Positions 17,977 to 54,100 of a DNA stretch of 64,000 bases are shown here, piece by piece (within the stretch, counting starts at the first letter, position 1; each line of letters begins with the position of its first letter). Location of the stretch: contig JAULBX010015533.1 of NCBI GenBank assembly GCA_032358255.1, positions 248,001-312,000 of the forward strand. Reading direction: 5' to 3'. This DNA is from Heterotrichella gracilis (Eukaryota; Sar; Xanthophyceae; Tribonematales; Xanthonemataceae). Under the pieces are notes generated by a model, which worked only from the letters and a program-made list of their open reading frames with translations, was not told the DNA's origin and did not search any database. Made by a program: the position numbers and the translations under genes.

Positions 17977-20900
17977 ATGGCATCAGCATGCACCACCCCT
18001 GTACCCCCCACCCAAGCCAGGGCAGGCACTAGCAGCTCCAGCACCACCCGTCGCACCACTCCCCACACCTCAGGAGCCCCTCCACCCCACCTGCGCAGCC
18101 GTACCACCCACCACCCACCACCACCCACCCGCCACACCTGGGCACCCACTAGAACACCCTCCGGTGCCCACAGCCAGCGTCCCACAGCCACCCACGCCGC
18201 TGCCCCAGGGGGGAATACAATACCATCAAACACCGCAGGGAGGCTAGCCCCCCGCCGCAGCCGCACCCACATGGCAGGGTGGGCTGTGGCGCTTCTCTCC
18301 ATCACCGCTGCCACGTTCTTCCCTCGGCACCAACCCCACCAGCCCCACCCACATGGCGGATTCCAACGGGGACAGGTGGCGACATCCGCCACCACCCGGC
18401 CACCCACCTCCCCAGTCTCACCCCCACAGCCAGAAGGGGACGGTGCGGGGCAAGGGGTGCACATTACAGCTGTGTTCCCTGGGGAGGTGGACAGCATGTT
18501 TGGGGTGTCCTGGTCCGAGGTGTGTTGCGGAGGCAAAAGGATGCATTATAACCCTTTTCTGTTGGCCCTTTTGTTTCAAGAGGACCTCTTTTGTGCTGTC
18601 ACCAAGCTGCACAATTATCAATCCATGTATTCAATTTATTCAATTTACTTTTATTTTTTCATATGTTATTTTCCATGTGGCAGGTGTTTGACCACATGCG
18701 CGGCAAGCTGCACATCAGCAACCCTGGCTTCACCATCAGCGCATACAGCACCAGCCAGCTGCAAGACCCTAAAACCGTAGCGAGTTTTAACGCCGACCTG
18801 GAGAGGTCGGGGGTTATGTTCGGGGTGGCCATCCAGGATGCTGGATCAGCCAATCAAATTGCAGCAGCAGCGCAGGGGGTGGCTAATGCAGTGTTTATGG
18901 ATTGCGCCCCTGCCCTCATGCAGCAAACCAGGTATGGCAACCCGCTCAAATCCTTAACCCTACATTGCTGTAAATCCGAAGCTCGAACCTGAAACCCTAG
19001 ACCCTACCACTTTTCATTGCCGCTCCTGGTGTGGCGAGACACATCCCTGCACGCTAATCCCGATTTTGCTGCCGTTCCAGGTTCGGGGGCGCCAGATTCG
19101 ACAAATCCGACGCATTTACCAGTCTCCTCGCCAAGCTGCCCTGGACCCAGGCGGCGAAGAACGCCAAGGTGGACACGCTACTGGGGGAGCTGTATGGGAG
19201 GAAAAGCTCGGAGGACTTCTTTTACATCATGCTGGTGGTGATCAACCAGTACATCACTCGAGTGCCCGAGGTGGCCAACTCGGTGCGTATCCACCTGTTA
19301 TGGTTGCTGCTCCCTTTTTGTTTGCCGCAGCAGCCAACATAGTCAGGGTAGTATTTCCCCCTGGTGCTTCAGTTGCGCTGCGGCCAATATCACTCAAACG
19401 CACATCGAGCCGGGGGAGTTTGCTGGCAACTTGCATTATTTAGAAATTCAGAAATCATGTGGATAATTCATACATGACGTCATGCTGTTAGGTGCAAGCC
19501 ACTGGACTTGAGGAGCTGAGGTGCATGATACAAAACTGCGGCGGGGAGGTGCTGGCATGCGTGCGGGATGCAGAGTGCAAGACGGCGCTGGATTGCCTGC
19601 AGGGGTGCAGCTTCAATGACCAAGTGTGCAGCTACAGGTGCGGTTTAAAGCATTCTTCACATGACAAGAATGCATGTCACGGTGGTGGAAAGAGGGTGAA
19701 TGTGGTGGGGAACAGGAGGTCACTCCCTACGCGGCGACATGTCCTGCATGTGTTGACACCCAAAACCCTAGCAGTCACTGCCATCATCTCACTTCCCTCC
19801 AGATGCATTGCCTGCTGCAAGGCCACCAAGCTGCAGCGAAGTTCCTGCTGCATACCTCAAAAGCAAAAAAACCATTGCCCTGTCGTAACCCCATATTATG
19901 ACAGGGTCTTATTATGACCCTGTCAAGATAATTTCTGGACACATGCACTTTCTGAAACATGCCAAACTCCCCTTCCTCGCCAGGTGCATCGCCTCCTACG
20001 AGTCCCCCAAGCTGGAGCAGTTCTCGCTGTGCATACTGCAGAAGCACAACTGCCTGGGCCTGAGCGCAGAGATACCCTCACAGCCCGACCCCGCACCCCT
20101 GGCCTCGTTCCGTGGGGAAGCCATGAGCCACAGCCTGGCTGAAGACCTGTTCATCGCATTCTTCAAGGGAGAGAAGCCATTCAGCTGGAGGGTGGCGGCA
20201 GGTATGTGGGGTGATTGGGGGTTTGGGGGGATCTGGAGGGTGGTGGGGGGAAGGATGTGGGTGGGTGGCAGTAGGTGGGGAGTGGATGGGAGGGCTACGG
20301 GAGGTAAGGATGGGGGCATTGTGGGGAGGTTATGAGCCTCAGCCCAGGTGCATGGATGCTGCAGAGTTTCTTGCTTGTCCATGCAGCACATGGCTTCTTC
20401 TGATGGCTGCACGCTTCCCCCTCCCCTGCAATTACCCCGCGTACAACGACTTCCCCTAAAGATTGCGCGTGCGCTCCCTCCCCTGCAGGCAAGAACCCCG
20501 CGTATGACTACTTCCCCTGCCAGTACCAGCTGTTCTACCGGGGCAAGGCCAAGGACACGCTGTGGTACGACCCGATCTTCAAGGTGCAAACGCTGGATGG
20601 GAGGGAGGTGTGGCGCAAGAGGTGAGGGGGCCGGTGGGGGGAGAGGGGGCGTGCTGTAAGATCAGACTGGCCCACGGGTGGGGAAGGGGTGGGAGCAAGG
20701 GGTGGAGGGAAATGAGGGTAAAAGGGCATACTGGCAGTGAACAAGAATCATCGCAAGTGGGACAAATTCAGGATGTGGTGGTGCTGGCAAGCTTCCCAAC
20801 ACTCGCCACCTGTGGATGACAACGCACCATACCGCCATTTGTGCACCATCCACATCCCTCCCACGCACCCATCCACGCACAGATCCACACATGCGTGCCC

Positions 20901-22377: not shown

Positions 22378-22413
22378 TCACCGCGCCCCCCACGTGAGCC
22401 TGTGCTGCTGTGC
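22264..22413 (-). repeat. 75-bp tandem duplication over the last codons of the RING-CH/AlgH gene
   Basis: Two adjacent units (about 22264-22338 and 22339-22413) share TTTAATTGTGCC, CTCACCGCGCCCCCC(G/A)CGTGAG, and CCTGTGCTGCTGTGCCAT. The right-hand unit contains the gene's final codons and stop; the left-hand unit lies downstream in the 3' flank. This is the same kind of exon-edge duplication as seen inside introns elsewhere. Confidence 0.7.
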
Positions 22414-25400
22414 CATGAGTGTTGCCCACAGGGTCTCAGGGGGGGTGCGCCACACGTCGCCAAGGGAGGCAGGGAGGTACGCCCAGGAACCGCTGCGGAT
22501 CTCGCCTGCGAGAATGTTAATGCTGCATCGACATCAATATCATTGCATGCGTGTGGGATACAGCACACGAAATGGGAGAATTGTCAGCTCCAGTCTGGAC
22601 AATACAGTGTGCAGCATGATGCATTCTGGGGTTGCCTTTGGATTCTGGGGTTGGCCCGGGATGCCTATAGGGGCGAGTACTACTCTTGCATGCATGCCTT
22701 CCCAGGATCATGCTACGTGCAGGAGTTGCAAACCTCACCAAACTGCAATAGGCTATCCACACTTTGTGACACAACAAGCCCCCACACGCATTTACCCAGC
22801 AACCGTCCCACCCAACTCCACCCCTTCCGGTGGCCACCAGGTGCATGTGCGGATACCCATTCACCATGTCCCCCCCCACCCCACAGTAGCCACCCTGCAT
22901 TCCCACACCCACTGGCGGCCACCAGGGGCCACGTGCGCACACCCATGCACCATCCCCAACCCCCAGCACCCACCTTCCAACTGACCATGCGCCCACACGC
23001 TAACCCCATGGTACACACGCACGTGCGCCGCCTGCCCCCTCCTCCGCCGGGACACCACCTCCCCCACCACATCCCCCACATGGCCCCCCTCGTACACACC
23101 ACCAGCCACGGCGTACGCGGGTGTGGGGGGTGGGGGGTGGGTGGCGTTGATGGGCACCACCTTGCGAGCCCCCACCATGTCGGGGGCGGAGTGGAGAATG
23201 GCCATTTCACGGGTGGGGCCTCCGCCTGAGGGGTGGGGGGTGGGGAGGTGGGAGGGTGGGGATAAGAGGGTAGGTAGGGTGGGGGGCGAGGAGGTGGGGA
23301 GCATTGGTGAATGCCTGTCAATGTTGAGCAGAGCAACGCACGTGTATGCGCCGTTGTCTTGCTTACATTCAACAAATGGAACTAAAAATGTAGCAATCAA
23401 AACAAACAGTAGCATACATTTCCCCCTAATCCCCCTCCCCCACCTGGTGCCCCCACCGGCCCCCCCAGGAAATGTGCCACCACCGGGTCCCTCAGCAGCT
23501 GGGGGTTGGCGGTGGTGTTGATGGCCACTGCTCGCTCTTCACTTGAAAGCGGTGCTGGGCGCAATGGGGGAGGCACAGTGGGTTCAGCAGACAGCAAGGG
23601 GTGTACGCGCAAGTGCTACTTTGATCAAGTGGTTACGTGCGTTCCTGCAAATGCAGCCAACAAACGGTCCAGGTCAGCCCCTACATTCCACCAACCAAAC
23701 GCACTGGGATTGCTGCTGCTGGTTGGCATGGAATAATTTCCTGCCAACCGCTGGAATGGCATTGGCGCAAGCGGATGCATCGGGAGGCCCCTCATCCCCT
23801 ACCTGTGAGTATCACCCCCCTTGCCCCGTGCCTGCCGTGGTCATACACCAGCACCACGCTCCGGCGGAACATGGAACGGTCAAGGCGGTCGGCAGCAACC
23901 AGCAGCACACCTGTGAGAAGGGGATTGGGGCGATGTTGCGAGCACCACGGTAGCGGAAACAGGGGAGTAACTGGACGACTACAATTGAACAACCAATGCG
24001 CAGTGCGCTTATCTTTTTCATCTTTTTTTCCTACTTTCCCCTCCTACATGGCCCCAGTCCCTCCACCTCAGCGCCATCCCCAGGCGTCCATGCGGCTCCA
24101 TGCGCAGCACCAGCCGCAGGCCACACGTTTGCATATATCCCCCTCTCCCTCAAGACAGAAACACAATATACTCGTATTTACTATTTCCCGCCCCTTTTGA
24201 GTTCTGTGTCCCACCTGGCCCTAACCCCTCCACCTCTGCCCCCTGGCGTATGAGCGCCACCCCCAGGCGGCCATGCGGGTCCATGCGCAGCACCAGCCGC
24301 AAACCGCGCGCGTGCAGCGTAGCCAGCAGGCCCCCCATGAGCAGCAGCGCCAGTGCAAGCAGGGAGTGGGAGCGCGTGCCCAGGAGGAGCAGGGCGAGCA
24401 GGGCGAGGTGGGGCCATGGGGGGCCTGCGGGCTTGGGGGACAGGAGTGGGTGGGATGGAAAGTGGGTGGGGGTGGCTGCGGGGGTCGGGAGGAGCATGGC
24501 AAGCAGGATGAGGTGGGTTGTGTGGATGTGTGGTGGTGGGTGTGGGTGTGGGTGGTGAAGAGGCCAGGAGAGGGTGAGCTGGGGGTGGTGGTGGTGGTGT
24601 GGTGTCTGGTTGGATTGGTTGTGGCAGAGACACGGGTCAGGGCAGGTGGTGCTGGAAAGGCCAGCCAGCCAGTGCTCAGGGTCTCAGGGTTTAGGGTTCA
24701 GGCTGTGGCACAGTAACAGCAGAAAATTCCAGGCCAGGCATTGGCGGCGACCCCAAAGGCTCAAAGGCCAGTCTAGGGTTTAGAGCATGGCATGGCAAGG
24801 GAGGCATTGGCGGCGCACCTGACAGGCCGAACGCCAGCAGTGTGATGCACAGCGCGCCCGCAGCCCCTCTCAAGGCGGCGCCAAGGCGTGTGGGCCAGGG
24901 GCCACGTGGCGGGGGCACACTGAACAGCCCTCGGCACACGCCGCAGCGGGAGGCGCGCTCTGCGGATAGTGGGTGGGGGGTTGGGGGGTGAGTGGTTGGT
25001 GCCCTTGCGCAGCAACTGCTCGTAGTATATATCAAGTCCTTGCTGGGTGTGGTGGGTTGAGGTGGGTGCTAGTGGTGTGGAGGTGCGAGACATCACAGTG
25101 CACCTACACACCTAGTGACGTGGACAGGTGGTTTGGAGTTGCATTGAGGTACTTGCGGGGAAGTGCCTGTGTTCCTAGTGGTACCACACAGTGTGCGCCT
25201 AGTGGTGCGTGGAGCCGCGGTTCAGGACTTGGCACCCCACTACTGCACATCACATCAGAGGAGGTATAAAATATATGGTGGGAAGGGGTACACACCGTCT
25301 GTTGGGTCCCCCCCGCGCACCACGTTGTGTTGCCACTTCCTCAGGCACTTGAAGTGCACATGGCGCTGGGTTCCTGTGGGGAAAGTGCACAGCCTCAGGC

Positions 25401-26878: not shown

Positions 26879-27265
26879 ATGGAGTTTGCAGCGCCAGGCC
26901 AGCAGCAGCAGGAGCGGCCAGGCCCCAAGCTGCGCTTCTGTCCCGAAAGCAACGACCTGCTGTACCCCAAAGAGGATAGGGAGCGCAGGCAGCTGGTGTA
27001 CACCTGCAGAAGCTGTGGGTACCAAGAAGACGCAGACCCCTCTGAGTGGTGTGTGTACCGCAACGAGGTGCGGCACTCGGCCAAGGAGAAGACCATCATC
27101 CTGAAGGACGTGCGGTCGGATCCCACGCTGCCGCGGACGAGGGACGTGCGGTGCCCGCAGTGCAACCACAACGAGGCGGTGTTCTTTTCAGCCAGCACTG
27201 AGGAGGGCATGACCCTGTTTTTCAACTGCACCAGCTGTGGCAACAGGTGGCGGGACTATGTCTAG
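26879..27265 (+). CDS. RNA polymerase II subunit RPB9
   Basis: Intronless 128-residue protein matching RPB9 over its full length. RPB9 is a small subunit needed for start-site choice, elongation and proofreading together with TFIIS. The N-terminal zinc ribbon reads FCPESNDLLYPKED with CRSC at 43-46. The centre has CVYRNEVRHS and DPTLPRT. The C-terminal ribbon has CPQC (92-95), EEGMTLFFNC and CTSC-G-x-R-W (117-124). In other eukaryotes the first ribbon begins with a C-x-x-C pair (FCxEC); here the second Cys is Ser24 (codon AGC), so one of the four usual zinc ligands is missing. The N-terminus has a short Gln-rich extension (GQQQQERPG). Being the only intronless gene in an intron-rich window suggests a retrocopy or simply a compact gene. 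Confidence 0.93.
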   Translation: MEFAAPGQQQQERPGPKLRFCPESNDLLYPKEDRERRQLVYTCRSCGYQEDADPSEWCVYRNEVRHSAKEKTIILKDVRSDPTLPRTRDVRCPQCNHNEAVFFSASTEEGMTLFFNCTSCGNRWRDYV

Positions 27266-28247: not shown

Positions 28248-31200
28248 ATGACGCCAACCCAAGTGAACGAGGGTTCGCTCACGGCTTCCCTGTTGATATT
28301 ACTGGTGGCTTTGAGTGGAATGTGGGCTTCGGTCGACGTCAGGTGTCCACAGATACAGCTGAACTCGGTATTTACTTCCGCCAGTGGCCTTCAAGCATTC
28401 AACAGCCCCAGGGTATTCAATAGGTTGGACTACGCAACTCAGCAGGCAGCCACCCTCTGTGGGGTTTCGTCAATTGTCAGCCCCTCATATAGTTTCGACG
28501 TCTCCGGTATCCCTTCCCGGGGCAACGCCATCTCAGTTGGCAGCTCCAATGCCATGGCACAAAATGGTGTTTTGAGCTTCCCATACTTCAGCACTGCCCA
28601 GTGCCCCGTAGGTAATCAACCTGCACCCAAAACTTTGCTCCATTATGCAGTGTGTGAATTCAGGTCATGAGCTTTATTGCTTTGCAAAGCAACGCTCTAC
28701 AACACACTGCACCTGCAGCAGCCAGAAGAACACAGGCCTCTTACTCGAGCGCTTGCAAGTGGTGCAGGTTTCGAGCTACCTAGCTCTCCTGGCAACACTA
28801 TGCACCTGCACTGGCCATAAATAAGGCACAAAGGTCTCTAACTCAGGCGCTTGGTGCAGGTTACGAGCCCACCTACCAGACCTGTCTGGGTCCGCCTTAC
28901 CGGGAGGATGTGTTCTTGTCGGGGTTCAACAACCTGAACAGCGCAACAGGCGCCATCTCGCTGTGGTTCAAGTGGCAGAGCTCGGCGGGTTCCGCTTCAA
29001 CACAAGTGCCACTGCTCACCCTCGTAGGTATGCCATAAACCCTAGACCTTAAAACCCTAAACGACTGCCGCTGCTCTGCCCTCATAGGCATGCATCAAAC
29101 CCTGAACCGTAGAGAACTAGTACCCTAAACAAACTCTTGACTGCGTAGTGGCCCCTCAACTCCGCCTTTGTGCGTCCCCTTTCTTTCTTTCTTTCTAGTG
29201 CTGTGTGCGTGTAGGTGCACCTTACTCAGCATATGCTCGCATCTGAACACCATTCTTTCTACAGGCAACACGCCTGGGTCCAGTCTCAAGGTGTGGCTGG
29301 GCAACGTGTACAACCCAACATCCACCGAGGCCATCACCATCATTGCGGAGGCCACTGGGTCCAGGTACATGTGGCAGTACCAGGAGACTGAGGCCGCATT
29401 TAAGGATAGCCTGTGGCACCACGTGCAGGTCACACACGATGGGACCCAGCCAGGTATGCCATGCATTTGCGGGCCCCCGTGCGATGATTCCATTAGGAGG
29501 CACCACAGGCCATGCAGTCCTGTCCTTGATGGGCTGCTGCCAGGGAATTTTCCCTTCATAAAAACCGCCATCAGGGACTTGACTTGTTGCATGCATGCCA
29601 TTGTTCCCCACCCAGTTACAGGTGTGCTCACTGTTGATGCATCCATAATTTACTGCATGGCTGCACATTTGAAAGCATGGTCTGGTAGACTATGTTGCAG
29701 TTGGACCTTGACATGGCATGCCAATGTCATGGCATTGCCCAACATTCACAAGCCCACTGGAAACACCAAACTGTTCCATCACCAGCCATTTTGCGCTGCC
29801 AGGAACATACAAGATGCTGATCGACGGCAACCCAGCCACCGTCAGAGCCATTCGAGCGCGTCCCCCTTTTGATTTGATGACTTGGGCGGCGTGCGCCAAG
29901 TACTGCTTGGGGGCGACACACCCACTGGGCAGAATCAGCGGTTCCCTGGCGGCTTCCAGTTGTACCGTGTGCGGCTGTTCACTCGAGTGCCCACCTTTTG
30001 TGAGGTGCAGCTCCTGGAATTTGAGCAGGGATGGTCAGCCATTCAGGTGCATGACGTGACCCCCCTGGGTGGCACGCCTATGCATTAATTTTAATGCATT
30101 AACCTGCGCTGTGCTGCATGGTAATTTCAGGCGCAAAAATCTGATGTGGTATAAGCCATTTCAGGAAATACTGCCTGGTGCTGCATGTAAAGGGCTGGAC
30201 TGCTCATCTTGCTTGAAGTCAAGAATGCATACATAATATGTAACAACCTGTCTGGGTTCCAAATGGGCTTCACCCGCCTGCAGGCGTTGGACCCGCAGGG
30301 CTTCTCCTCCCCGTTCACCAACCCCTCCGACACGTGGTGGGCCTTTGACGGCGCCACGCAGACCGCCACCAGCGTGCAGGGTGCCACTGCTGGTGCCAGC
30401 AGCAGCAGCTACCGGGTGGCAATGACCAGGCACTCAGCTGCAAGTGCGTGCCTGGCAAGGGGTTGTGGGCTGATGTGTACTCACTGGCAGATTGTCAGCA
30501 TAATAAATGTTGTACTTTTTCAACTGTGGTGATGGCAGGCTTGACAGCGTTGACAGCATTTGCCTTCGTTTTGGTGGTCAACTAGGTTGTAGCCCCCCGG
30601 CTGAGTGGGGCAGTGAGCCGAAAGAATGCAAATTGCTATTAAATTTAATAGCATGCATATTAATGAATAATTAATTTGTTGTGATATTTCTTCACTGCAG
30701 TCAGATTCATGTACATCAATTGTATGCATTCTGTTTATGTACAAGCATAGTCGCCTTGTTTTCACAGTCGGCCTCAAAACTAACTCCATCTTTCCAAATG
30801 ACCACTGCCGGCGGGTGCTGCAGGTTACCCATCCAGCTTCTCCACCAGATGCGCAACCACCGTCTTCCAGCTCACCCACACAAACCCAACACAATGTAGC
30901 ACGTGGACCCCAACATATGTGGCCTTTGGGTGCATCGGCCCCGCAGCGCCGCCCCCACCGCCGCCACCGCCACCGCCGCCACCGTCAGCAGCTGTTATTG
31001 TCCCAATCTCTGGTAGTCCCAGTGCAGCGTCACCACCACCACCGCCGCCGCCGCCGCCACCCCCCTCGCCACCACCTCCTCGGCCCCCACCGCCTGCCCC
31101 ACCACCACCGCCTTATGACAACCTGTTTGGCACACAAACAAAAACTGCTGTGTAAGTTTGAACGCATGTTATTGCACCCGTCATGCTGGACCCTAACAGA

Positions 31201-34200: not shown

Positions 34201-37200
34201 GTTGAGGCTGCCTAATAGCCCAGCTGTCAGCCCCATATAAAATTGTTGGTTCAACGATGGTCCTTTAAAATTCCAAACCACAGGATATTCACAACTAAAA
34301 TCAACAGATTTGGTGCAAGCGCATTTCTACAAGAAGTTGCGGGTTCAAGCTCTAGGCCACAAATTTGTGATGCAAAGTTTATAATCATATTTGCTGCAAA
34401 TTGCTTTCCATAAAATTTCAACCCTGTAAATCTTGTACAAATCCAGCTATTTCCCTAATGCACAAGTTTAAAATGTGCCGGTGCTCATGTAGGATGCTGG
34501 TCATGGCGCATCGAGCTCCAACAATCCTGTGAAGCGCAAAGGGAAGAAAAAGGGAGTAAGCAGGGATGGCAGCGCTGGTGACCAATTTGATGCACCGAGG
34601 GCGTCTTCCCAGCCTCAAATGAGGAGCGCAAAGCATGTTGCCAGCTTTGAAGTGGACAACGGTAAATGGCTCTATGTCACACATCAATTGTGTTTTTTTT
34701 ATTCCTAATCTTGTGTAGTTTACTTATGAAACCGGATTAAAAATTTTTAAAACGATATGGGTCTTTGTTGCAACATGTACTTGAAAGCAGTACTTGATAC
34801 ATGTACTCGACAGCAGTACTCATGCCGCTCTGTGCATGAATATTAACGCTGTTTTTTTGTAAAGATCATACATAAGTAATCACGTTTCAAGCTGGACAGC
34901 GGTGCTCACGCCACTCTGTGGACGGTGCAGCAACCTACAGCAGCCTCAGTGCAAGCGGACCTGTCACCCAAGAAGCCCAAGAAGGTCAAAGCCAGCCAGG
35001 TGGCCCCTTCCTCGGATTCTGAGATCAGCCCCGACACAGCAGAGGCCCCCGTGGCAGAAGAGGGCATGATTCGGGACACACGGCTGTTCAGCAGGATCAG
35101 CAACTCGGCATTGCTCCTATCACAGGGTAGGCAGGGACACAGAATGTATTGTAGAACCACATTCGGGAATTTCCTTGAAAAGTGGCTCTCCTCAAGTTGA
35201 TCTCTGTGTCATGCAGTGTGCCTCCCTCCCTCTCTCGTGCTCTGTCCCTTCCTAAACTAGCATTGGTCTTCACGATTCAAATGTGGCGTATCGCTCTGAA
35301 TTGATTGTATTAGTTGAATTAATTTGTTACAGAAGAAGCAACTTCTAATCCAACAGACACAATCCAAGCCTGGCCTGGGGATCAGCACCGCATCCCAGAG
35401 GGCCACGAGGCTGAGGAGAGCATGAGCTTGCTGCCTACGGGGGGTGCAGAAGACAAAGGTAGGGTTTAGGGTTTTGGTGGAGGAATGCCCAGCCCCTGAG
35501 GCTGGCTCGCTTTCATTCTGTCAGACAGAGACTCACTTCCTCAGATGATGCCCTCATAATTGAGATGAGGCACATAATTATTTGTGTTCTCGGAATCCTG
35601 GACCGGTGTTTGGCATGTTTGGCATGGTTTTTTTTGCAGACTTTTTTGTAAATTGTTTTGTACAAGTTGTACTGAGTTTATTTGTGGTGCAGGTGACAAG
35701 GCCCCAGGCGAGGTGACTGAGCAGGAGTATCTGAGAACGGAGGCAATCGAGCAGTTTGGCGGCCTGTTTGAGGCCTACCGGGGCAGCTCCCCCTTTGCGT
35801 CCAACTTTGTGGTGGCAGTGATGCTAAACAAGCTCATGTACGCCTGCGTCATTGGCTTTGTGGCGGGCTACGGGAGTACGCAAGGTATGACACATTTATT
35901 AGTCCACTACGTAATGGTATTTTGCTTTTGAAGCAATTAAGTAGTTACTTTTGGTTGCACGTATTATTTACCTCTCTAGGCGCCAATTAATCAGATCTGT
36001 CAACACACTGGGTGGTCCATTTTATGGGGGGAAAGCCTATTGAATCATAGGGAACTTTCTGAGGATTACGTGGCATTTCAATCAGTGATATTCACAGCCA
36101 GCCAGCAGGTATCACACGACATTTCAACCAGTGGTATCCACAGCCAACCCGCAGGCACGACCATGGCGTGGGTGTGCTCTGGCCTCCTTGTCTTCTGTTA
36201 GGGCACCTACACTATCTTCATGTCACTCACTCGTGCACATGACTCTTGGCCAAGGAGTGATTGATTGCTCTGCCACATGCCAATTTCATCGACTTGGTTA
36301 CTTCTGCGCGTGCAACGGCTCAATGCTCAGTTGCGCACACATTTGAGTAACCCAGCCCTCACCAGCAGGCACTACCATGGTGTGGGTGTGCTCCGGCCTC
36401 CTAGTCTTCTCCCAGGGCACCTACACCATCTTCATGTCACTCATCAAGCCCCACACCGACCGCTGGATGTGGTTTGCAAGCATGCTGTGCTACTGGTGCA
36501 CCACCTCCTCGCTGGTGTGCTGCCTCATCATGCAGTCGGGGGCGTTCAGCAAGCTGGTCAATGCCATACTGCAGCAGAGCATGCTGTTCTTCCAGGTTGG
36601 GTAGCAGCCTTTGTTTGGTGTTACAATTACCTTACACTTTCAACATTGTTTTTATTGAATGGCAGTAAAAATAATATTGGAAATTAGAGGGGTTCATTCT
36701 TTAATATAGGGAATTGTCATAGGTACCTGCCCTCACCTGCCCATAAATTACACCCGTGAGAATCTCAAGGCATCTGACGGGGCCCGTCAGATGCCTTGAG
36801 ACGGGCCAAACTTACAAACTGACCCCGAGGTGGTGCCACGGGGCCTCATCAGTAGCCTTTGAACAGAACAGAGGATGGCACAGGCCCCATTTCCGCAGCT
36901 TCTTTGCGCTCACTGTGCCCACCTTGCTTGCAGGTTGCTTCCTGCATCAGCCAGTTTGTGTCTGTGTGGGTGCTGTCGGTGGCTCAAGTGCTCAAGCTGT
37001 TTGAGGTGGCCAGCAAGGTGAGGGAAAGTGCAGGTGGTGGTTGCGTGCAATGCTGAGGCATGCTCTTCTCCATGCTGGCTGGAAACCTTTCTCTGTATTG
37101 CAATTACTGTGCATTTTGGGCATTTCAATACTGCTGGAACATTTCTCTGGAAGCTAGGTAAGGAAAGATTCTGAGGCTATCATCCAATAGCTTCCCTCCA

Positions 37201-39243: not shown

Positions 39244-42200
39244 TTATGTGACCTTGTCAATGGCCACCGTTGGAGAAAACCTTGACGCCATCTGGCCCAC
39301 TTTCTGCCCGCCTGCCACCTCCGCCTTGCTAAGGACTTCCCCCCCGGCGCCTCTGCCTCCCGCCACCCCCTTGAGGTAGGCCACTATGTCTGTCATGCAG
39401 CCGTGGTTGAGCAGGAAGCCGCCGTGCAGCTGGGAGGGGTATGTGCACACCTGCACACAGGCAGGCACACAGGAGATTGCTCAATACATGTAGAATATAC
39501 CCGGGTTTGAGCGCCCCAGGCGCTCGAAAAAAGGGGCGACGCAAATTACCCCCAAGAACACCAGACATTTTCATCAAACTCTAAGGGTTGGACAGTACTC
39601 TAGGGTTTCACCTCTTAGGGAGGAAAGTGCATATCTTTTCATGCTTCAAAATACATCTTAGGTTCTGAAAGAAAGAAGGTATTAAAATCTGTGACCATTT
39701 GCACCAGGGGTGGCTCTCGGTGGTGCATTCAACAGCTTGGATTTCATCAGACAGATGATAGTAAACAGCTGCCAGCAGCCGAATGACAACAGGTATAGTA
39801 GTCAAGCAAGAGCCACGGGGAGTACAGCACAAGGTACATCAACCCCAATATCAGTCACCAGTGGTCTTGGAGGTTTGTGGTAACCACTGGTTCACACTAG
39901 GGCGCTCACCTTGATGTGTTCATAGTTTGCTATGCGCAGCTGCTTGCGCACCAGCTCGGATGGCACCAGGTCATCGCTCCCTGACAGCACCACCAGGGAG
40001 TCGCGCTGGGTGGGCAGGTCCTCCGGCCACATCATCTCCTGCAGGTAATTATGGAGATAATATATAATTAATAATACGAGAGATGTCTAATGAATAGCAA
40101 ATTATTTTCTGCTGGTAGGTCCTCGGGCCACATCATCTCCTTCACATCCACACACATTTCCATGTCGCAACTGAACAACAACGCCCTGATAGCAATTACT
40201 GGCAGCAAGAGCACGTTGCCTGATGCCGCAGATGTTACACTCTTGAATCCCTCAACCCCTGCACTCCGACCTCACCTCGTGCCACACAAAGCGGCGCGCA
40301 AAGGTCTCCGCCACCAGCATGTCGCGCGCGCACAGCCACCTGCGGGAAGGGATGGGGGGGGACATGGTGGGGAGTGCGCATGCACCGCTGTATTTAGGTG
40401 GAGAGGGGGATTGCCATGGTGCCAGCTGCGGGCCATGCCGCTCACAGTAAAAGATGGAATAATCAGTATAACAGTTGTTTTATCTCATTTTTGGCATGCG
40501 CTAGATAGGCTCGCACCCTGAAGGTTCCTCTATACACAGTGCACCCGGACCCTAAATATCCTAAACCAACATCCTTGAGGGTTCCTGGACCCAGGGATGG
40601 CACCCCCCCACATGGCAGGATACTTGGCAACCCTTCACAAACAACATCACTACATACATGACCAATCCAGGGTCCCCTGCCGCACCTGAGCACATCCATG
40701 AAACCCTCTAGCGTCCACGCCATGTGCCATGCCGCTGGCTTGTACAGGAAGTTGCGCGTCAGCTGTGAGTAGCAGGTGAGCAGGTTGACGGGGTCGATCA
40801 GCACAAGGCTGGAGGCAATCTGCACGCAGGGCCAGTCTGGGAGTTAGGGTTTGGAATGCACGTACATTAAGGTTTAGGATTAGGGTAAGGGTCGATGAGA
40901 ACAAGGCTGGAGACAATGTGCATGCAGCGCCAGTGGTAGGGTTTGCCTATTAGGGTTCAGAGTCTAGGGTTTAGGCTCTGAACCCGGCTTGACGGGGTCG
41001 ATCAGCACAAGGCTGGGGACAACCATCATGGAGCGCTAGAGCTTAGCGAATGATGTGCACATAAATTAGGGTTCAGGGTCAGAGGGTCATCAGCACAAGG
41101 TTGGAGGCATTTCATCTTTTCTCCGATTTCTTCCACTCACTGTTGGGCTCAGCCTGCACATGTGCGAGATGATGAAGGTCCCGCAGGAGTGGCCCATCAG
41201 CACCACCCCCTGCCACCCCAGGCGCTGCTCCAGCACCTCCATCATGGCACCCGCCACGTCAGCAAACGCCACTGCCCTCGGGGCCAGGCGCAGCGACAGG
41301 TGGCGGGCCTCCAGGAAGGCCAGCGGGTGGTTGGGGAAGGCCAGGGCCAGGTGGGTGATGAAATGCACGTAGGGGAGAAGACCTAGGCCCACACCGTGGA
41401 GGAACACGATTGGCCTGCAGGGGAGGGAAGATGGGGCATGAGCAATTGCCTTGCAAGCGGAGGAATGTGATTGACATGCATGGAGAGGATATAGTGCAGG
41501 GGACGTAGGCCCACAGTGGGGGGACACGATTGGCCTGCAGAGGGGATGGGCCCCAGAGTAGCATACAAGTGGATCATGGCCTTTAAGTTGTGCATTGCGG
41601 CATTGCCAAATTCTTCCCTCCCAGCTCATACACACATAATTGCCCTCATTCCGTCTCCATTCATGACATGGTCTATGTGGATGTGGGCCATTTACCATAC
41701 CTGCGGGTGAAACCCTGAAGCCTAAACCCTAAACAGTACCATACCTGTGGGTGTCACCCTCTGCAGGCGCCTGCGCCTGGATGGAGGGGGGGAACCCTGG
41801 GCAGCTTGCGGGGGAGCCCCCAACATCTATGCCCTGCTTGCGCCCCCCCTTGTGCCCCCTGGGTTGTCTCACCCACACGCTGATGTCTGCACCCTTGTGG
41901 TAGTGCCTGATCATAGAATGGGGACACACACAGCAATGAGGCCAACTCACAGGGGGGATATTGTAGGTACCTAGGATTGCAACAGTGTAGCCACACTTGC
42001 AGTCAGCTAAGTGTGACCCGCAATCGTTGCTAAGTTGCTGTGTGTTGAATCAGATACTTTCATGTGAGATAATGGGAGGCGGAACTCAAATCCATGCAAA
42101 AATGCACTTGGATATGAATTCCAACGGCCCCCCTAGGGTTTTGCCCCCACCTCTTATATCCTAGCAGCTTGAGTAGGCCCACTGCCCCCAGGGTAGCCGC

Positions 42201-43872
42201 CTCCATACCCAGGTACCAGGGGAGGGGCTTGTGCATCACCTGGATGGAGGGGGGCGAGTGAGCTGGAGGGAAAGACGTGGCCTGGCAAGGCATTGTAGCC
42301 ATTGTGCACCCTTTTACAAGAATCTGTACATTGCCGTGGTGACCCATACGTAACTCTTATCCCTTTGGACTCAGCACCAGTTTATGGCCCATAACACAAC
42401 AGTGATTTCATGCCAATCTGGGTGCTCAACTGGCGTCTTGGTAGCTGAGAATAGGCCTGGAGGGTCGCACATCCAAGACACGATGTGCAGGCTTGAGGGC
42501 AGGCTTCCATTCTCGATCTCCGACGCAAAAGCCTGATCTTAAGCCTGCACATCCTGCATTGGCTGTGCCTTTTTCCGGGCCTTTTTCAGCTACCCGTGCA
42601 CCACTTGCGCACCCAAATCTGTTCCAGAGGGATATTAAGAAGCCAACACCTTGAGCTCACCGGTGCTCTGCAAACCCTGCCAAATACCCCTACCCCTGCC
42701 AAACCTCCTCGCCATACAGTAGTGCTTTGCTGAATCGGTCACGACTCCTAAACCATTTAGTCAAAAACCAACTGCAATCCTCCTACTCAGGCTACCCAAA
42801 ATCAACAAAAGGCACGTTTAGTGAGAGGTCAGGACAGTCTCTTTCTGTTGCGAAATCAAATACGCAAAACTCAATGTTCATTGGGCGGCCAGCAAGGGTA
42901 TTGCTGGTGTGCATGTACCTATCCTTGACATGCAAATTTCAGAGTTTGGCCTTAATGCAGAAGAACGTGCAGAATTTAGGGGTTAGGGTGGTCTGGCCTT
43001 ACCTGCAGGGCATCGTGCAGGTGCAGTATACAGTGCACATCCGGATTGAACCCCGGCTCAAACTTGACCCCCCAGGAGCTCTCAATTGCCTCGATAAACG
43101 TCTCCATCTGTTGCTCCTGCTCCGCATTCAGCCCATCAGGAGAGACATTATACAACCAGTAGGACATATTGTGCATCATGTTGCCCCGCTTGATGGCCTC
43201 CAGGGGAGCGTTGTAGAACCAGCCGGAGAGGAAGTCATCCAGTGTGACGATGTGGGGCAGCTGCTGGTGGATGCGGCTGCACGTCTGCGCCACGTTGTGC
43301 GGGGAGAAGGGCTGGAGGCGGGGGGGCCGCACAGCCTGGACCCTGCGCAATAAGGCATCACTAGTTGTGGGGGTGCGCTCACGCACATGAGGCTGAATAT
43401 TCTCTTTTGTGGATGCACCCCTCTTGTTGATGCACCATGCATGCGCATGATACAGTGCTGCTATCCAGAGTGAACCCTGAACCTACCACCCTGCACCTGT
43501 ATCTGCAGTACAGGTAGAACGCCAGCTCCACACTGAACCCTGAACCCTGACCTTTGAGCCCTGAACCCCGCACCTGTATCTGCAGTACAGATAGAAGGCC
43601 AGGTCCCACCCCGCACCCCACACCCTAAACCCTAAACGGCTGAATCCTCAACCCACAAACCACAACCCTAAACCCAGCTGAACCCTATCACCCTGCACCT
43701 GGATCTGCAGTATAGGTAGAACGCCAGCTCCACCCCGCACCACAGCCGCGCCGCCAGCCGCACACCCCACCGCCCCGACTGCAGCAGCCAGCGCACCACC
43801 AGCCACTCGGGGAACAGCACGATCAGGACAGCAGGGTAGAGGCCAGCCTCCAGCAGCTGGTGCCATAAACGC
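39244..43872 (-). CDS. alpha/beta-hydrolase fold protein (lipase/esterase-like), 5' end unresolved
   Basis: Ten joined exons with agreeing phases: 43872-43699, 43342-43003, 42239-42151, 41906-41873, 41776-41745, 41414-41141, 40819-40686, 40339-40276, 40038-39910 and 39450-39244. A hydrophobic first segment (YPAVLIVLFPEWLVVRWLL) and LDDFLSGWFYNAPLEAIKRG precede the catalytic domain. Landmarks are the oxyanion strand PIVFLHGVG, the nucleophile elbow GHSCG, the acid region SGSDDLVPS, and the catalytic His in HGGFLLNH. Together these complete a Ser-Asp-His triad. The family contains lipases, esterases and many uncharacterised plant proteins, so the substrate is unknown. The first exon must be preceded by another (it begins in phase 2). 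ATG candidates near 43986 do not fit in phase. This gene has the densest set of exon echoes in the window. Confidence 0.83.
40117..40143 (-). repeat. echo of hydrolase exon 9 start and acceptor
   Basis: GGTAGGTCCTCGGGCCACAT plus CATCTCCTTCAC repeats the exon/intron border at 40016-40041 (GGCAGGTCCTCCGGCCACAT, then CATCTCCTGCAG). It lies in the intron just upstream on the coding strand. Confidence 0.7.
40774..41110 (-). repeat. four copies of hydrolase exon 7 start
   Basis: The real exon edge (GTCGATCAGCACAAGGCTGG at 40794-40813) recurs at about 40887 (GGTCGATGAGAACAAGGCTGG), 40993 (GGTCGATCAGCACAAGGCTGG) and 41083 (GGTCATCAGCACAAGGTTGG). The copies are spaced about 90-105 bases apart and separated by TTAGGGTTTAGG-like sequence. 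The extra copies lie in the intron between exons 6 and 7 and have decayed to different degrees. Confidence 0.85.
41456..41545 (-). repeat. decayed copy of hydrolase exon 6 start and acceptor
   Basis: Sequence around CACGATTGGCCTGCAGAGGG (41526-41545) repeats the true exon 6 acceptor region (CACGATTGGCCTGCAGGGGA at 41406-41425). It extends about 60 bases into exon-like sequence (GTAGGCCCACAGTGGGGGGA against CTAGGCCCACACCGTGGAGG). Confidence 0.75.
43488..43740 (-). repeat. three copies of a hydrolase exon end with its splice donor
   Basis: TGCACCTGTATCTGCAGTAC + AGGTAGAACGCCAGCTCCAC at about 43493, CGCACCTGTATCTGCAGTAC + AGATAGAAGGCCAGGTCCCAC at about 43571, and the real edge TGCACCTGGATCTGCAGTAT + AGGTAGAACGCCAGCTCCAC at about 43695. 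Runs of AACCCTGAACCCTGA and CCCTAAACCCTAAAC separate the units. All three keep an ACCT on this strand, which is a GT donor on the coding strand, so they could compete as splice sites. Confidence 0.85.
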
Positions 43873-48180: not shown

Positions 48181-51100
48181 ATGTCCCACTTTCAAGCGCC
48201 CCCTTGCACGACCCTCCACCCCGCCGGTGGTGCCAGCTCGCTGGGGACGAACCGCTGCCCTCCCTTGCCCCTGGGCCCTCACCGGTGGGGTCTGGATGGG
48301 CTCAGACCATGGGCGAGGGGGGACAGGGTGGGAGGTCCAGACAGGCACCCCCTCCATATCTATGCGCAGAGGGGGGGCACAGCCTCAAGGAGCAGCCACA
48401 GGACTGCAGGGGGACCCACAAAGGGAGGAAGCACTAGAAAACAAACCGGGGGAGGGAAATCAGAAGGCGCATGGGGCCAGCAAGGCGCCTGGGATGGGCG
48501 TCCCCCGCAGGGCAAGGGGAGGATTCCCGAGGGGGCATACAAGGGGGGAAAGGGAGGCAAGCCCAGCAGCGGCAGAAACCCTATCGGAGGGTCTGGCCAG
48601 GGCAAGGGGGGAGGGTTATCCGAGCGGTACGCGGGGAAGCACGTGGCCACCCGCAAGCTTGCCCTGCGCATGCTGCAGCTGAGCATAGAGAAGGGGACGG
48701 GCGGCGACCAGGGGAGGAAGGGGCGGGAGCCTTACGTGCACCAGCTCCTGCGCATGCTCAAGGTGGGTAGCTTACTCAAAGGAGGGGAAATGGGTGCACT
48801 GCTACCTCACCGCCTGTGCCATAGTCCTATTCTATTCCCCCTGCGCATTGATACCTCACCGCCAGGGCCCTCCCGTGCTCTAGCAATGAGGGATCATTAC
48901 CCCCTGTCGGTGGATGCACGCCTCCAGAGGCATCAATGAATTGTATTCCCCGCCTGTGTAATGGACCCTGTCCCCGCCCCTATTTGTGCTCCCATGTTGC
49001 CTCCCCCCTGGTGGGGTCCCTGCCATAGCAATACCCATGTGCATGCCGGTGTTGGGCGCCATGTGTATGCAATGGCGCCCATGTGCATTTGATAGGTTAC
49101 TGTGCAACTGACGCTCGTGTGCATGTAGTGGCATAGACAGATGCAATTTTGCATTGCCTGGCACTGATCACCAAGTGTATCCGCCTCTTTCCATGTGCAG
49201 GAGGATGCAATGGGGCATGGGGGTGGATCAAATGGGGAGGCACCCGCCAGACGCATGGGAAGGGGAAGGGGAGCAGGCAAGGCCATGCTATACGATGCAC
49301 TGGAGGTGAGATGAGGATAATTTTCCATTGAGCAGGGGTATGCTGGTTGCGGTGCATTTCACCTTGCAAATGCAGTTCATTTGCTATCATTTTTGCAAAT
49401 ACTGTGAATGCCACCACCTCACTGAGATTTCTCTATCCATTTTCGAAACCGCACTCTCTCCACTCCCCCATCGTCCAACACAACCACCACATTTACCGGC
49501 CCACCTGACGCGGTGGCTTAAAACCGCAAATCCTTATGCGGAAACCCTTAACTCTGACCCCTTACCTCACCCCAGGTCCACCGCAGCGCCTTCTCCTCTG
49601 CTGGCACATCCCATGCGGAGAATGAAACCCTAAATCCTAATGCGGAACCCTAAAGTTTGACCCCGTACCCCCACCCCAGGTCCACCGCAGCGCCTTCTCC
49701 TTTGCCCTTGAGGCAGAGCTCATGGAGGAGTGGGCACAGAGCGAGGAGAGGCTCAAGTGGTGAGCTGGTTAGGGTTTAGGGTTTGGGGTTGTCTGCACAG
49801 AGCGAGGGACAATCTGAAATTGGCATCAGAATCTGCTGCCAAAAGTGACATAACATGGTGGCGTCATAAAATGTCAACACATTGTTTTTGTATTGCTACG
49901 TGCTCTGGCAGAAGGGTGTGGGAAAAACCTGCCAACAGCGTACATACCCTTTTTCTTGTGGAGCTTGTGGCACCTACTGACAGGGTGTACATTATGTGAT
50001 GCATGCCCTTGTTGTCCACATGTTTCATGTGCCATGACTCTGCCTCGTATTACTCCCTCTGCTTCCTTGTCCCTCCCCTTGGTACCCACACATGAATTTT
50101 CCCATTGCCCCCTTGCCCCTTTCATGTGCACCGACCCAACCTGTGCATCCCCCACCCCAGGCCCCCCAACCGCCTGCAAGCTGAGGGATATGCCATCCTG
50201 GGACTGGCGGCATCCCCAGATGGCCAGCTGTACCGGGAGGCTCTCATGCGCTTCTCACTGCCATCCTTCTCCCCCCTGCCAGATCACGGCTTCAGTCAGG
50301 GGGATATCGTACTGATAAGCAAAGGGGATCCAGGTGCGCTGGAAGACTGTGGGGAAAACAGTGCTATCCCCACCTTAACGTTCTTAATTATACCAAATTA
50401 CTTCGATACCACCCCCAAGTTTTCATAAAGTCTCCATGCATTTTCACAGTCCCACAGTTTGTTCCCGCATGCCCAATGCCAAGCCCTCCTCTAGTCGTTG
50501 ATTTCACCCCCTTGTCCCCTCCACCCCCTTCCCCTCCCAGTTGATGACACCATTGAAGGTGTTGTGGTTGACATCGCCTCCATTTGTCCCTGTTCCAATC
50601 ACCTCTGGCCTATGCCATAAACCCCCCAACCCTTCATTAATTTCACCCCTTGCCCCCCACCTCCCCAGGGGATGACGCCATTGAGGGTGTTGTGGTTGAC
50701 ACCGCCTCCAAATGGCTGAGGGTGGCTGTGCCTGGGGATGTGGCTGGCTTTCTGAGGGATGGGGGCTGGAGGCTGGACCAGTACGCAAACACAGTCACTT
50801 ACGAGCGGTAAGGGTTGGCGCTATGGTATCAGGCTAGGGTTTTGCACAGGGTCTGAGAGGGGCCGCCTGCAAGCAGGAAGGGTGGGGCGGTAGGGTTGGA
50901 GGCTAGGGTTCGAGGGGGGTTGGAGGCTGGAAAGTATGCAAACACGGTCACATACGAGCGGTACGGGTGTTGCATTGCGATTGCAAGTTGACATGGGCTT
51001 CACCGAGTGCTCATTGTGAACCCTCCTGGTTAAAAATGCAATCGAGTCACAATCCCCTTCGATGCCCTAGGTCTATGCAGGCACTATAATTTTTAAACTA

Positions 51101-54100
51101 CAGGCTTGGGCTCCCATTTACTGCTGTAAAATGCACATCTGATTTTACTAACATATTTACCCGGTCCCCCAGATCCATGCAGGCCCTTTCGGTTTTTGGC
51201 TCCCCACCCGCCTCCACGGATGGTGGCCAGGCCGCGCTTCGGCGGGTGATGGTGGGGGTGGCGGGGGGAGGGGCTGTGGGCCTGGCTGCTGCTGCGGGTG
51301 TGGCTCCCCCTTGGATGTGTGGCCAAGGGGGGAAGGAGATGAAGGGAAAGGCAAGGAGTGCAGTGGCGGCGCTGGAAGGTGGGTAGTAATGCGAGCAACT
51401 ATTGAGACAAGGCACAGCCATGCGGATCATTTGGTTGACAATAGTGCACGTTTTAATTGACATATGGACATTAGACTGGCATTTCCATCAATTGGGCATT
51501 TTCTTCCGTTGAAAATGTTGGGGAACCATAACCCCTTGATGTAGCTGCTGATGAACTCAAAGGAATGTGACGAGCTTTGTAAGAAACCCAGCTTTTTCGT
51601 TTGCACATCCCCGCAGGAAAGCTGAACCCCAGCCAGGTGTCTGCCATCCACGCCGCCCTCCAGCGCACCCTCACCCTCTGGCAGGGGCCACCAGGCACAG
51701 GCAAAACAAGCACACTGCTGGCGCTTCTCCAGGTGCGGGTTTCGTTAAAACCCTAAATAAAGGGTACCCTAAATAGAGGTACCAAAAATTGAGGTATCCA
51801 AACGAAGGGAGGTATCCGAAAGAAGGGAGGTATCCGAAAGAACAGGGGTGTTTTCATAAAAATATTGGATGTAAATAAAAACAAAATAAGAAATTCCAAC
51901 GATGTTTGCAAATAATTGTTGCCCTCCTGCAGGTGGTGTCCGAGGTTGGTGTGACGGGGAAGGCGCCTGTGTTGGCCACAGCCGCCAGCAATGTGGCGGT
52001 GGACGGGCTGGTGGCGGGGCTGGTGGCCAGGGGGGTGCGGGTGGTGCGGGTGGGGCAGCCGTCAAAGGTGAGCACACGGCACAGGGGGGAAACCCATAAA
52101 TTGGAACAAAATCAATGTTGAAGGGTGCCCCTTGTGCACGGGCGGATTGATGCTGTTCACACAAAGTTGGCCAGTTACCTGGAGTAAGTTATTAGGGGCC
52201 CTCTCAATTTTGCCACATTTCGCAGGTATTGGCGGGGGTGCGCGAGGTCACCCTGGAGGCCCTCATAGAGCAGCGCCCAGCTGGCAAGGTGGCTAAGATG
52301 ATGCGGGAGCGGATGGGGAGGGCCAGGGGGGCGGTGGGGCGGGAGGAGTGGGACCGGATACAGCAGCTGGAGGAGCAGGCAGCAGGTGGGATCTGGGGGG
52401 GGTGGGAGTTTGTACCAGATAGGTGGCTAGGGTTTCTCAAGGAGATGGTCCTCTGCAAGTACGGTAGCTAGAACAGTAGGCCAGCAGGTGGTTATGGCGG
52501 GAGGTAAGGGATTTGAGGGCATCGCGCATCACTATCAGCAATGTCAGCAGTAGCAGCGGCGTGGAGGCCGGCAGCTGCAGCATCAATCAATAACCGGCAA
52601 GCATCCTGTTGGCATTCGGCATTAGGACTGCCAGTTTTCAGGACATCATCGCACATGCGCCCCAGGTCGCAACATGCCCTCCGGCACCACTGCCCAACCC
52701 GCTTTCTCCCCCGTGCAGATGAGGTGCTTGGCCGCGCTCAGGTGGTTGCGTGCACCTGCATAGGAGGGGGGGACCCACGGCTGGAGGGGAGAAGATTCCC
52801 CCTGGCAGTGCTGGATGAGGCCACACAGGTGGGGGAACCCTTATCTGGGGTTCGCGCTCACAACTCTTACGAGGGTTCATGCCACAATCTGTGGGGGGAA
52901 ACACTTGCAAGAATTTTATGCAAAAAAGGGCTTTATATACCTTTACATGGGGTGTTGCCCCCAATTTCCTAGGAGGGATCATCCTTGTGTGGGGGATTTA
53001 TAGCGATGGGCGCACAACCCTCACAGCCCTCACGCGTGTTTATTAGCCCTGCTTCAGGGTAGGCACCGGTGGCTTGTTTGGTGGAGCGTGGCTAGCTTCC
53101 TTGTTGCGCACATGCATGCGTGGTCTGGCGTCGCAGCATCCTACTTTCCAATGTGTATGCAGCCCTTGGATTGCGAGAACTTTGCAAGGGTGTGTGAAAA
53201 CCCTGTCCAGGATTTTGCTGCTGTAGATAAGGGTAATTCTGTCGCTCCGCAGGCCACTGAGCCCTCCAGCCTGGTGGCCCTCCTGCAGCAAGTGGAGTCC
53301 ATCATCATGGTTGGGGATCCCAAACAGCTCCCGCCAACCGTAAAATCCCTGGAGGCCATGGGCTCGGGGCTGGGGATCAGCATGTTTGAGCGGCTGCAAA
53401 TGCTGGGAATCGAGCCCTACTTGCTGAATGTACAGTATAGGATGCACCCAAAAATCGCAGAGTTTTCATCGCTCCAGTTTTACAACGGCAACGTGAAGTC
53501 GCACCCCAAACCCAGCGAGAGGCTGGCGCCTAAAGGTGTGTATCAGCCTCAATCTCACACCGCGCTGTGATCCTGCAATATCACCATCCATGCATTTTCA
53601 CAATCTACCGTACTACACCTACCTAATTTTGCCACTACCTTTTCCAACTCCTGCTACAGTTGATGGGGTGTTGGATGATATTATTAGCGTAGCATAAGTT
53701 GCGCCCTTTGCTATTGTCAACGGTGTTTCTTGGGCCATCCATCAGGGTAGATAAAGGTGGCTCCTGTGCCATGCCGCTAGCTTTCCTCTGGCCAATCCCT
53801 AAACCCCAATTGATGGAGTATCGATGTGCTTCGCGCCGCGGTGGCTCCTGTGCCATGGCTGCTAGGGTTCCCCTGGCCCACATCCTTAACCCTAAATTGT
53901 TAGGGTGCTGACGCTGCCTCCTGTGCCATGCTGCTAGGGTTCCCCTGGCCCAACCGCTCTAAGCCCGTGGCCTTCACCAACTGCCAGGGCAAGGAGGAGA
54001 GGTCACAGTCAGGCTTTGAGGGCTCCACAGCCTCGTTCTTCAACACAAAGTATGGTATATATGTGGTATATAATCTGGAGTATACCGTATATTCCATCGT

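Follow-up and report, generated by a model that had tools for sequence, protein, structure and literature searches.

Copies of exon edges inside the adjacent introns, here called exon-edge echoes, are the subject of this report. They were analysed in a 64,000-nucleotide stretch of the xanthophyte alga Heterotrichella gracilis (the window; C156:248001-312000), where an initial annotation had noted them between 20400 and 54000. The parts of the mechanism that we propose for them are already known from mammals and Daphnia. In mammals, double-strand breaks are sites where interstitial telomeric repeats (ITS) are inserted, in some cases together with a duplication of the target (PMC2246262, PMC7215372). 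Within this pair of papers, the one on the horse ascribes such insertions to staggered breaks, and the 31% of human ITS that are intronic fit random insertion. The algal tracts resemble mammalian ITS in that they are short, internal and very probably made of the genome's own telomere unit, with a telomerase domain present here; they differ in that about half of the sampled clean tracts are flanked by repeats (13/25 and 6/13) and in being tied to introns and exon edges.

The neointrons of Daphnia (PMC4202315) are alike in their intronic direct repeats, attributed to staggered breaks and with passive lengthening through recurring breaks proposed, and in repeating the terminal bases of the exon inside the intron. 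In Daphnia, however, the introns are new and the shared exon motifs measure 4-12 bp, whereas here existing introns seem to grow and the repeats are longer; the string 'telomer' occurs 0 times in the Daphnia text, whereas the filler here is often telomeric. Small tandem duplications have also been traced to fill-in at 3' overhangs by Pol alpha-primase guided by CST (PMC8355091). The likeness is that the stretch between opposed nicks is doubled (43-bp overhangs were tested) by the telomere fill-in complex, while that work concerns mouse and human cells and, in the part of the paper considered, mentions neither introns nor telomeric filler. Rogers and Bendich 2025 (PMC11782384) likewise ascribe repeats near intron borders to insertion and break repair, but in their work the two ends of a single intron, 5' and 3', are set against each other, with repeats averaging 11.4 bp, whereas the pairs here consist of an exon edge and an intron interior; 'telomer' occurs twice in the text of that paper.

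Another published set of short local duplications associated with breaks includes splice sites and parts of exons, as here; it reports an inverted exon copy, whereas the copies here are direct only and come with telomeric filler. Rogers 1989, Gao and Lynch 2009 and Hellsten 2011 are said to have put forward intron creation via AGGT tandem duplication. This model of intron creation (PMC3443670, PMC4974935) has local duplication across splice-like sites in common with the echoes, but the donor/acceptor homology that it predicts (PMC3443670) was not found here. Two papers on algae (PMC12636532, PMC6549138) held nothing on telomere repeats in introns in the parts considered. No description of telomeric filler between duplicated exon edges was found by full-text literature searches, which covered few subscription journals and in which most hits were judged by title or the start of the abstract.

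Direct copies of exon edges

The analysis covered a 314-kb sample made up of the window, 200 kb of C156 and 50 kb in total from C300, C50 and C500, out of a genome assembly of 68.5 Mb in 903 contigs; counts refer to this sample unless the window or the genome is named. C1 (894 kb) was excluded from the statistics because of its GC content: over its first 20 kb GC stands at 36% and the open frames are very long, which sets it apart from the rest, and one frame of 1482 codons gave no Pfam match. It is possibly a bacterial contaminant or symbiont. Gene models were built with our own two-strand gene finder (C++), seeded with exons picked by eye and self-trained to convergence. It called 428 exons and 375 introns, with medians of 282 bp for introns and 155 bp for internal exons, and a splice consensus of CAG|GTRNGT at donors and TGCAG|G at acceptors.

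Direct pairs were collected by banded self-alignment (offsets 30-1000, score at least 64) and compared with displaced-band controls. The window holds 38 direct pairs against 0-2 in eight displaced controls, and the sample 180 against 5-18 per control. When telomere words, defined as 7-mer rotations of CCCTAAA on either strand, were masked beforehand, there were 169 direct pairs against a control mean of 1.0. Pairs within one family or array are tallied separately in the pair and linker counts and are hence not independent. The copies are direct only: non-overlapping inverted pairs numbered 10 against 8 in the control, no excess, in a count from which 88 overlapping palindromic self-matches (score at least 64), presumably hairpins or palindromic words, were excluded.

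These copies are tied to splice borders. In a strict test, the 50-bp exon edge was aligned with the trimmed adjacent intron; it matched its own intron at 39/729 borders and a random other intron at 0/729. This is the self-alignment with shuffled pairing that the initial annotation had proposed, run here on 314 kb, and it upholds the claim made there that the copies are bound to borders beyond chance. Deeper exon bases rarely match their own intron (3/588 for bases 51-100 and 0/382 for bases 101-150). A border-spanning echo is present in 37/375 introns, about one in ten. Among pair families, 41/127 touch a junction against 25.5 +- 4.5 under circular shift, and intergenic families are scarce (10 against 38.6 expected by circular shift).

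Local direct repeats are several-fold denser than elsewhere in C300 and in C156:168000-199000; these stretches include a sulfotransferase-like gene with duplicated segments that are predicted as separate exons. Without these hot stretches (C300 and the 200-kb sample past 168 kb), own-intron edge matches stand at 19/615, weaker yet present, and 25/69 families touch a junction against 12.7; the hot stretches alone give 16/58 against 12.8, which is not significant. The junction excess over random placement is moderate, 1.6-2.1x, and could be largely a matter of geometry and selection. It may arise because exons are short, because copies inside exons are purged and because copies anchored to a conserved exon fade more slowly.

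The 48 intron-lodged echoes range from 74 to 96% in identity, which bears out the graded decay described initially. In 16 well-preserved echoes (identity at least 86%, score at least 90), the match covers 15-78 exon bases; it stops within 17 bases beyond the splice site in 12/16 and continues in 4/16. For 48 good pairs (copies at least 85% identical), we compared the linker with the segment beyond the other copy, which a head-to-tail duplication predicts to be alike. The linker was unlike this neighbour at a threshold of at least 48 in 32/48 pairs. Judged by this comparison, about two thirds of the pairs, and at least half, look like direct repeats flanking a foreign linker.

Telomere repeats between the copies

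From the sequence, CCCTAAA is very probably the telomere unit of the genome. Both C70 and C140 begin with some 70 bp of CCCTAAA repeats oriented as at a telomere; terminal arrays longer than this were not seen. A CCCTAAA 28-mer has 209 overlapping match positions genome-wide and the reversed pattern 0; among the 100 positions listed, 14 fall in the arrays of C70 and C140. A telomerase RNA-binding domain (PF12009) was found on C626, above the cut-off.

The initial account made no mention of telomere repeats between the copies, and it is here that the linkers stand out. Per kb there are 0.59 telomere 7-mers in exons, 2.1 in intergenic sequence, 8.1 in introns and 43 in linkers. In a linker test with masking, which retained 120/169 pairs (linker of at least 12 and spacing of at most 260), a telomere word was present in 40/67 exon-edge linkers against 11% of matched intron segments, in 19/38 intron-only linkers against 9%, and in 4/14 intergenic linkers against 6%. 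The word density of exon-edge linkers was 62.1 per kb against 3.65 in matched intron segments (17x). An unprompted 7-mer scan, limited to words seen at least 8 times, returned the seven rotations of CCCTAAA as the seven words most enriched in linkers, 10- to 17-fold. This enrichment points to break repair.

The association also holds intron by intron. Introns carry 1111 telomere words against 237 in an order-3 simulation, although single words can be chance, and a word is present in 149/375 introns. An echo and a telomere word co-occur more often than expected (27/37 echo introns with a word against 122/338 others; odds ratio 4.8, p 2.5e-5), also inside length classes above 230 bp and without the hot stretches (p 0.005). 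Word-bearing introns are longer (median 348 against 245), and length alone also adds chance words. Word density peaks just past the donor, with 15 and 23 per kb over the first 40 bp and 3-16 in the other donor-side bins. Their rarity in exons and the longer word-bearing introns fit break repair, and would equally be expected from coding constraint and length. Intron tracts prefer CCCTAAA on the sense strand (148 against 95, p 0.0008), which the mechanism proposed below does not account for; TTTAGGG on the sense strand would supply TTTAG|G acceptors, so that selection is conceivable.

Some telomere tracts are themselves flanked by repeats. There are 245 intron tracts with a median of 9 bp and a maximum of 58, of which single words may be chance. 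Direct repeats flank 54/245 of them against 15/490 control positions, in a test that gives 3-5% positives at control intron positions. By place, 21/57 were flanked within 40 bp of a donor, 9/36 within 40 bp of an acceptor and 24/152 deeper; without the hot stretches the count was 22/151. Tracts with at least two perfect units had flanking repeats scoring at least 64 in 13/25 cases, two places accounting for five of these rows. Cleanest of all are A:136287-136356, where four telomere units sit between exact 18-bp repeats, and C300:9218-9311; within 80 bp of either there is no other telomere word.

For replication, 13 tracts on 13 other contigs were taken from a genome search irrespective of their flanks. 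Flanking repeats scoring at least 64 were present in 6/13 stretches (L030, L031, L034, L035, L038 and L039), against 19/400 control positions at this score and 23/400 at a score of at least 50; L038 is of low complexity, and a second tract of that stretch was the one analysed. In L036 the flank score was 50, with the repeat 1-3 bp off the tract and no other telomere word in the stretch looked at, and the remaining six stretches had none. The repeat adjoins the tract (0-3 bp) in L034, L036, L039, A:136305 and C300:9253, and elsewhere there are extra bases or no repeat; around the clean tracts of A:136287-136356, C300:9218-9311 and L036 it comes this close on both sides. An exon was called in 5/13 of these short stretches, and in L034, L035 and L039 the exon ends 11-14 bp ahead of the tract. 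A second haplotype with an empty site was not found for the three echo-bearing stretches that were searched against the genome.

Echo loci in the window

Between 20400 and 54000, 13 splice borders in five genes echo in the adjacent intron (VDE 1, RING/AlgH 1, the 'LamG' gene 2, hydrolase 5, helicase 4), and two further echoes, 19799-20018 and 60074-60313, lie outside this interval. The strict edge test is positive at 9/157 window borders. The loci are as follows.

19799-19837 (intron) and 19980-20018 (across the acceptor between 19983 and 19984), plus strand: acceptor echo of the VDE-like gene; linker without telomere word.
20428-20457 (intron) and 20489-20518 (start of exon 20489-20621), plus strand: acceptor echo of the VDE-like gene; linker without telomere word.
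24042-24133 and 24209-24316, minus strand: donor echo of the RINGv/AlgH-like gene; linker without telomere word; the gene finder called 24035-24148 an exon, which we judge to be a wrong call.
29002-29051 and 29061-29111, plus strand: donor echo, donor between 29027 and 29028; the linker 29052-29060 is AAACCCTAA.
36147..36443, plus strand: acceptor echo, acceptor between 36368 and 36369; 89% identity over 83 bp, with the similarity ending 8 nt inside the intron; the 131-bp linker is unlike any neighbouring segment and has no telomere word.
40013..40144, minus strand: acceptor echo of the alpha/beta-hydrolase gene, exon edge 40038; linker without telomere word.
40781..41109, minus strand: acceptor edge in four copies (about 40785-40836, 40889-40934, 40989-41039 and 41074-41109), exon edge 40819; telomere words in 3/3 linkers.
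41370..41543, minus strand: acceptor echo of the hydrolase gene, exon edge 41414; linker without telomere word.
41693..41760, minus strand: donor echo, exon edge 41745; two 24-bp copies flank the linker GAAGCCTAAACCCTAAACAG.
43482..43741, minus strand: donor edge in three copies, one of them called an exon by the gene finder, exon edge 43692; the linker 43618-43683 is rich in CCCTAAA.
49521..49705, plus strand: acceptor echo of the helicase-like gene, acceptor between 49679 and 49680; linker without telomere word as first aligned; when masked before alignment, the pair is 49555-49601 and 49658-49705, with telomere words inside the linker.
50543..50710, plus strand: acceptor echo, acceptor between 50668 and 50669; 93% identity over 40 bp; one telomere word in the linker 50583-50670.
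50758..50968, plus strand: donor echo, donor between 50807 and 50808; telomere words (TAGGGTT) in the linker 50816-50911.
53756..53955, plus strand: acceptor edge in three copies, acceptor between 53937 and 53938; CCCTAAA in the linker 53881-53911, none in 53820-53838.
60074..60313, plus strand: donor echo, donor between 60129 and 60130; no telomere word.

These loci confirm the dozen or more introns in five genes of the initial annotation and modify it in several respects. Copies in the window are spaced 44-293 bp apart, a wider range than the period of about 65-215 bases given there. Most copies do span the border, as was said of all of them, but the ones at 20428 and 50543 begin 0-2 bp into the exon; likewise the border echoes are real, but the window also has pairs unconnected with borders. 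Seven predicted proteins, five of them from 20400-54000, were searched against Pfam, which backs four of the five gene names in the interval (VDE; RINGv and AlgH; alpha/beta hydrolase; AAA_11/AAA_12 helicase). The LamG/TRP protein gave no match, leaving that name unconfirmed.

The window holds further features apart from the echoes. A 39-bp palindrome, 97% identical to its own reverse complement, lies at 36763-36801 in an intron of the echo-bearing gene at 28-38 kb, and an inverted self-match of about 200 bp (42416-42618, 70% identity) lies in an intron of the hydrolase gene. Another intron feature of the hydrolase gene is a short dispersed repeat at 39493-39612, matched at 83% on C725 and at 88% over 50 bp on C584. 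The single-exon gene at 26879-27265 stands amid intron-rich neighbours; its protein we take, by eye, to resemble the RNA polymerase subunit RPB9. Across the 314 kb, GCATGCA (231) and ATGCATG (186), which are palindromic and TGCATGCA-like, are among the commonest intron 7-mers.

Staggered-break repair as a proposed mechanism, and its rivals

We consider it probable that the exon-edge echoes were left behind when staggered double-strand breaks were repaired imprecisely, a process that lengthens existing introns. Nicks on opposed strands some 20-90 bp apart would leave overhangs; if both overhangs were filled in, the stretch between the nicks would be doubled, and the ends would be joined with filler, often telomere repeats (CCCTAAA/TTTAGGG). 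Such an event would be neutral inside an intron. Within an exon the reading frame would be lost, except where the doubled stretch held the splice site, in which case use of the outer splice site would remove the filler and the second copy together with the intron. Each surviving event would thus lengthen an existing intron, and the survivors would resemble exon edges copied into the intron. A staggered break combined with this splice filter would yield the direct orientation, the tie to borders and the telomere words near donors.

Duplication and filler may stem from one event; a 3' overhang is a substrate for both telomerase and fill-in activities. The filler may have been written by telomerase rather than captured from telomeric DNA, and rescue by splicing would act as the filter. 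It is a more tentative matter whether the action of the telomere maintenance machinery (telomerase, perhaps with a fill-in polymerase complex) at staggered breaks is a main engine of intron lengthening in this alga; we regard it as a possibility somewhat short of an even chance.

Several points weigh against repair of staggered breaks. An exact telomere word is present in the linker at only 7/15 border places of the window (8 if masked before alignment), which leaves the others to be explained by different filler or by decay. Within the window by itself, echoes and tracts are not significantly associated (p 0.09). Intergenic telomere words are 4x rarer than intronic ones, whereas random breaks predict otherwise. 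The linker resembles the predicted neighbour in 16/48 pairs at a threshold of at least 48 (control 2%) and in 24/48 at the loose threshold of at least 36 (control 12%); simulated tandem duplications were 100% positive at a threshold of at least 44, in a simulation that contained no indels. The exon side of the copies is longer than the intron side, the medians being 34 and 11 in 35 echoes (echoes with at least 60 intron bases excluded), and this short intron side is not accounted for. The same is true of the hot stretches, which drive part of the effects, although the main results shrink but hold without them. In L030, L034, L035 and L039 more telomere words follow within 120 bp downstream, which would fit recurrent insertion and unit duplication alike, and in the arrays C300:14078-14417 and L039 the tract is repeated along with the unit. 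Searches for the CTC1 and Stn1 families gave no match, and the control families likewise gave none. Finally, borders and gene models were predicted from the sequence alone, with the Pfam matches as the sole measure of accuracy.

The arrays just mentioned are what would be expected if the tracts had been in the introns first and their fragility (stalled forks, G-quadruplex) had provoked local tandem duplications, some across borders, with the tract included in the unit. At several of the tract loci there is more than one tract, the 16/48 linkers that resemble a neighbouring segment fit as well, and interstitial telomere repeats have been called prone to breakage (PMC11626172). We nevertheless hold this order of events to be a good deal less probable than staggered-break repair, because 32/48 linkers are unlike the neighbour despite copies at least 85% identical, and because A:136287-136356, C300:9218-9311 and L036 show a clean tract with the repeat close by on both sides and no second tract.

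Neutral tandem duplication at a uniform rate is unlikely; in this reading geometry, exon purging and the slower decay of exon-anchored copies create the border tie, and the telomere words are unrelated. Random units of about 100 bp would often span junctions, given the median lengths of exons and introns, and the junction excess is modest. However, such a process leaves unexplained the 17-fold density of telomere words in exon-edge linkers, the co-occurrence of echo and word in the same introns, and the fact that most linkers are unlike their neighbour. The tandem duplication envisaged in the initial annotation is retained in part: 16 of the 48 pairs (24 at the loose threshold) agree with it, while most well-preserved pairs do not.

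A mobile intron-like element (introner or MITE) carrying telomere repeats and making long target-site duplications would also leave an insert flanked by direct repeats at many loci. We think it very improbable: beyond telomere and telomere-variant words no shared 7-mer is prominent in the linkers, non-overlapping inverted pairs show no excess, and three echo-bearing stretches match elsewhere only briefly and often in telomere-like sequence, in a search that skips simple repeats.

Intron gain through a duplicated exonic AG|GT, of the Rogers/Hellsten type, seems still more doubtful. The borders do show the proto-splice form CAG|GT, and C300:13832-13986 scores 51 in register (0.07 expected at a score of at least 50), but likeness of donor and acceptor in register was found in 0/375 introns at a score of at least 60. 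Of the tandem-duplication model of intron gain or growth advanced initially, local direct duplication across borders is thus observed and growth fits, while gain finds no signature.

We give equally little credit to the duplicated edges being functional in alternative splicing. Splice dinucleotides are retained in 29/38 echoes, though these were preselected for similarity across the site; only 8/38 spacings are divisible by 3 (8:16:14 for remainders 0, 1 and 2), and the mild excess of mismatches at third codon positions (94, 97 and 129 of about 480 each, ungapped count) is what a neutral copy facing a coding exon would give as well. By these measures the copies look to be outside coding use. 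Least credible of all is an assembly artefact: the assembly is a draft in 903 contigs, but the copies differ by graded amounts and several contigs show repeats flanking telomere tracts.

If repair of staggered breaks by the telomere machinery is true, that machinery would write the filler and double the flank, and splicing would hide the scar when the flank holds a splice site. Discussions of intron growth usually have to rely on sequences that are old and blurred. The scars in this genome are numerous, age-graded and anchored to conserved exon edges, and since they are often marked by recognisable filler, one genome may give a datable series. The finding would join three literatures, those on telomerase healing of internal breaks, on fill-in tandem duplication and on intron evolution, and would offer the testable idea that splicing is a safety net that lets the repair of breaks at exon edges survive.

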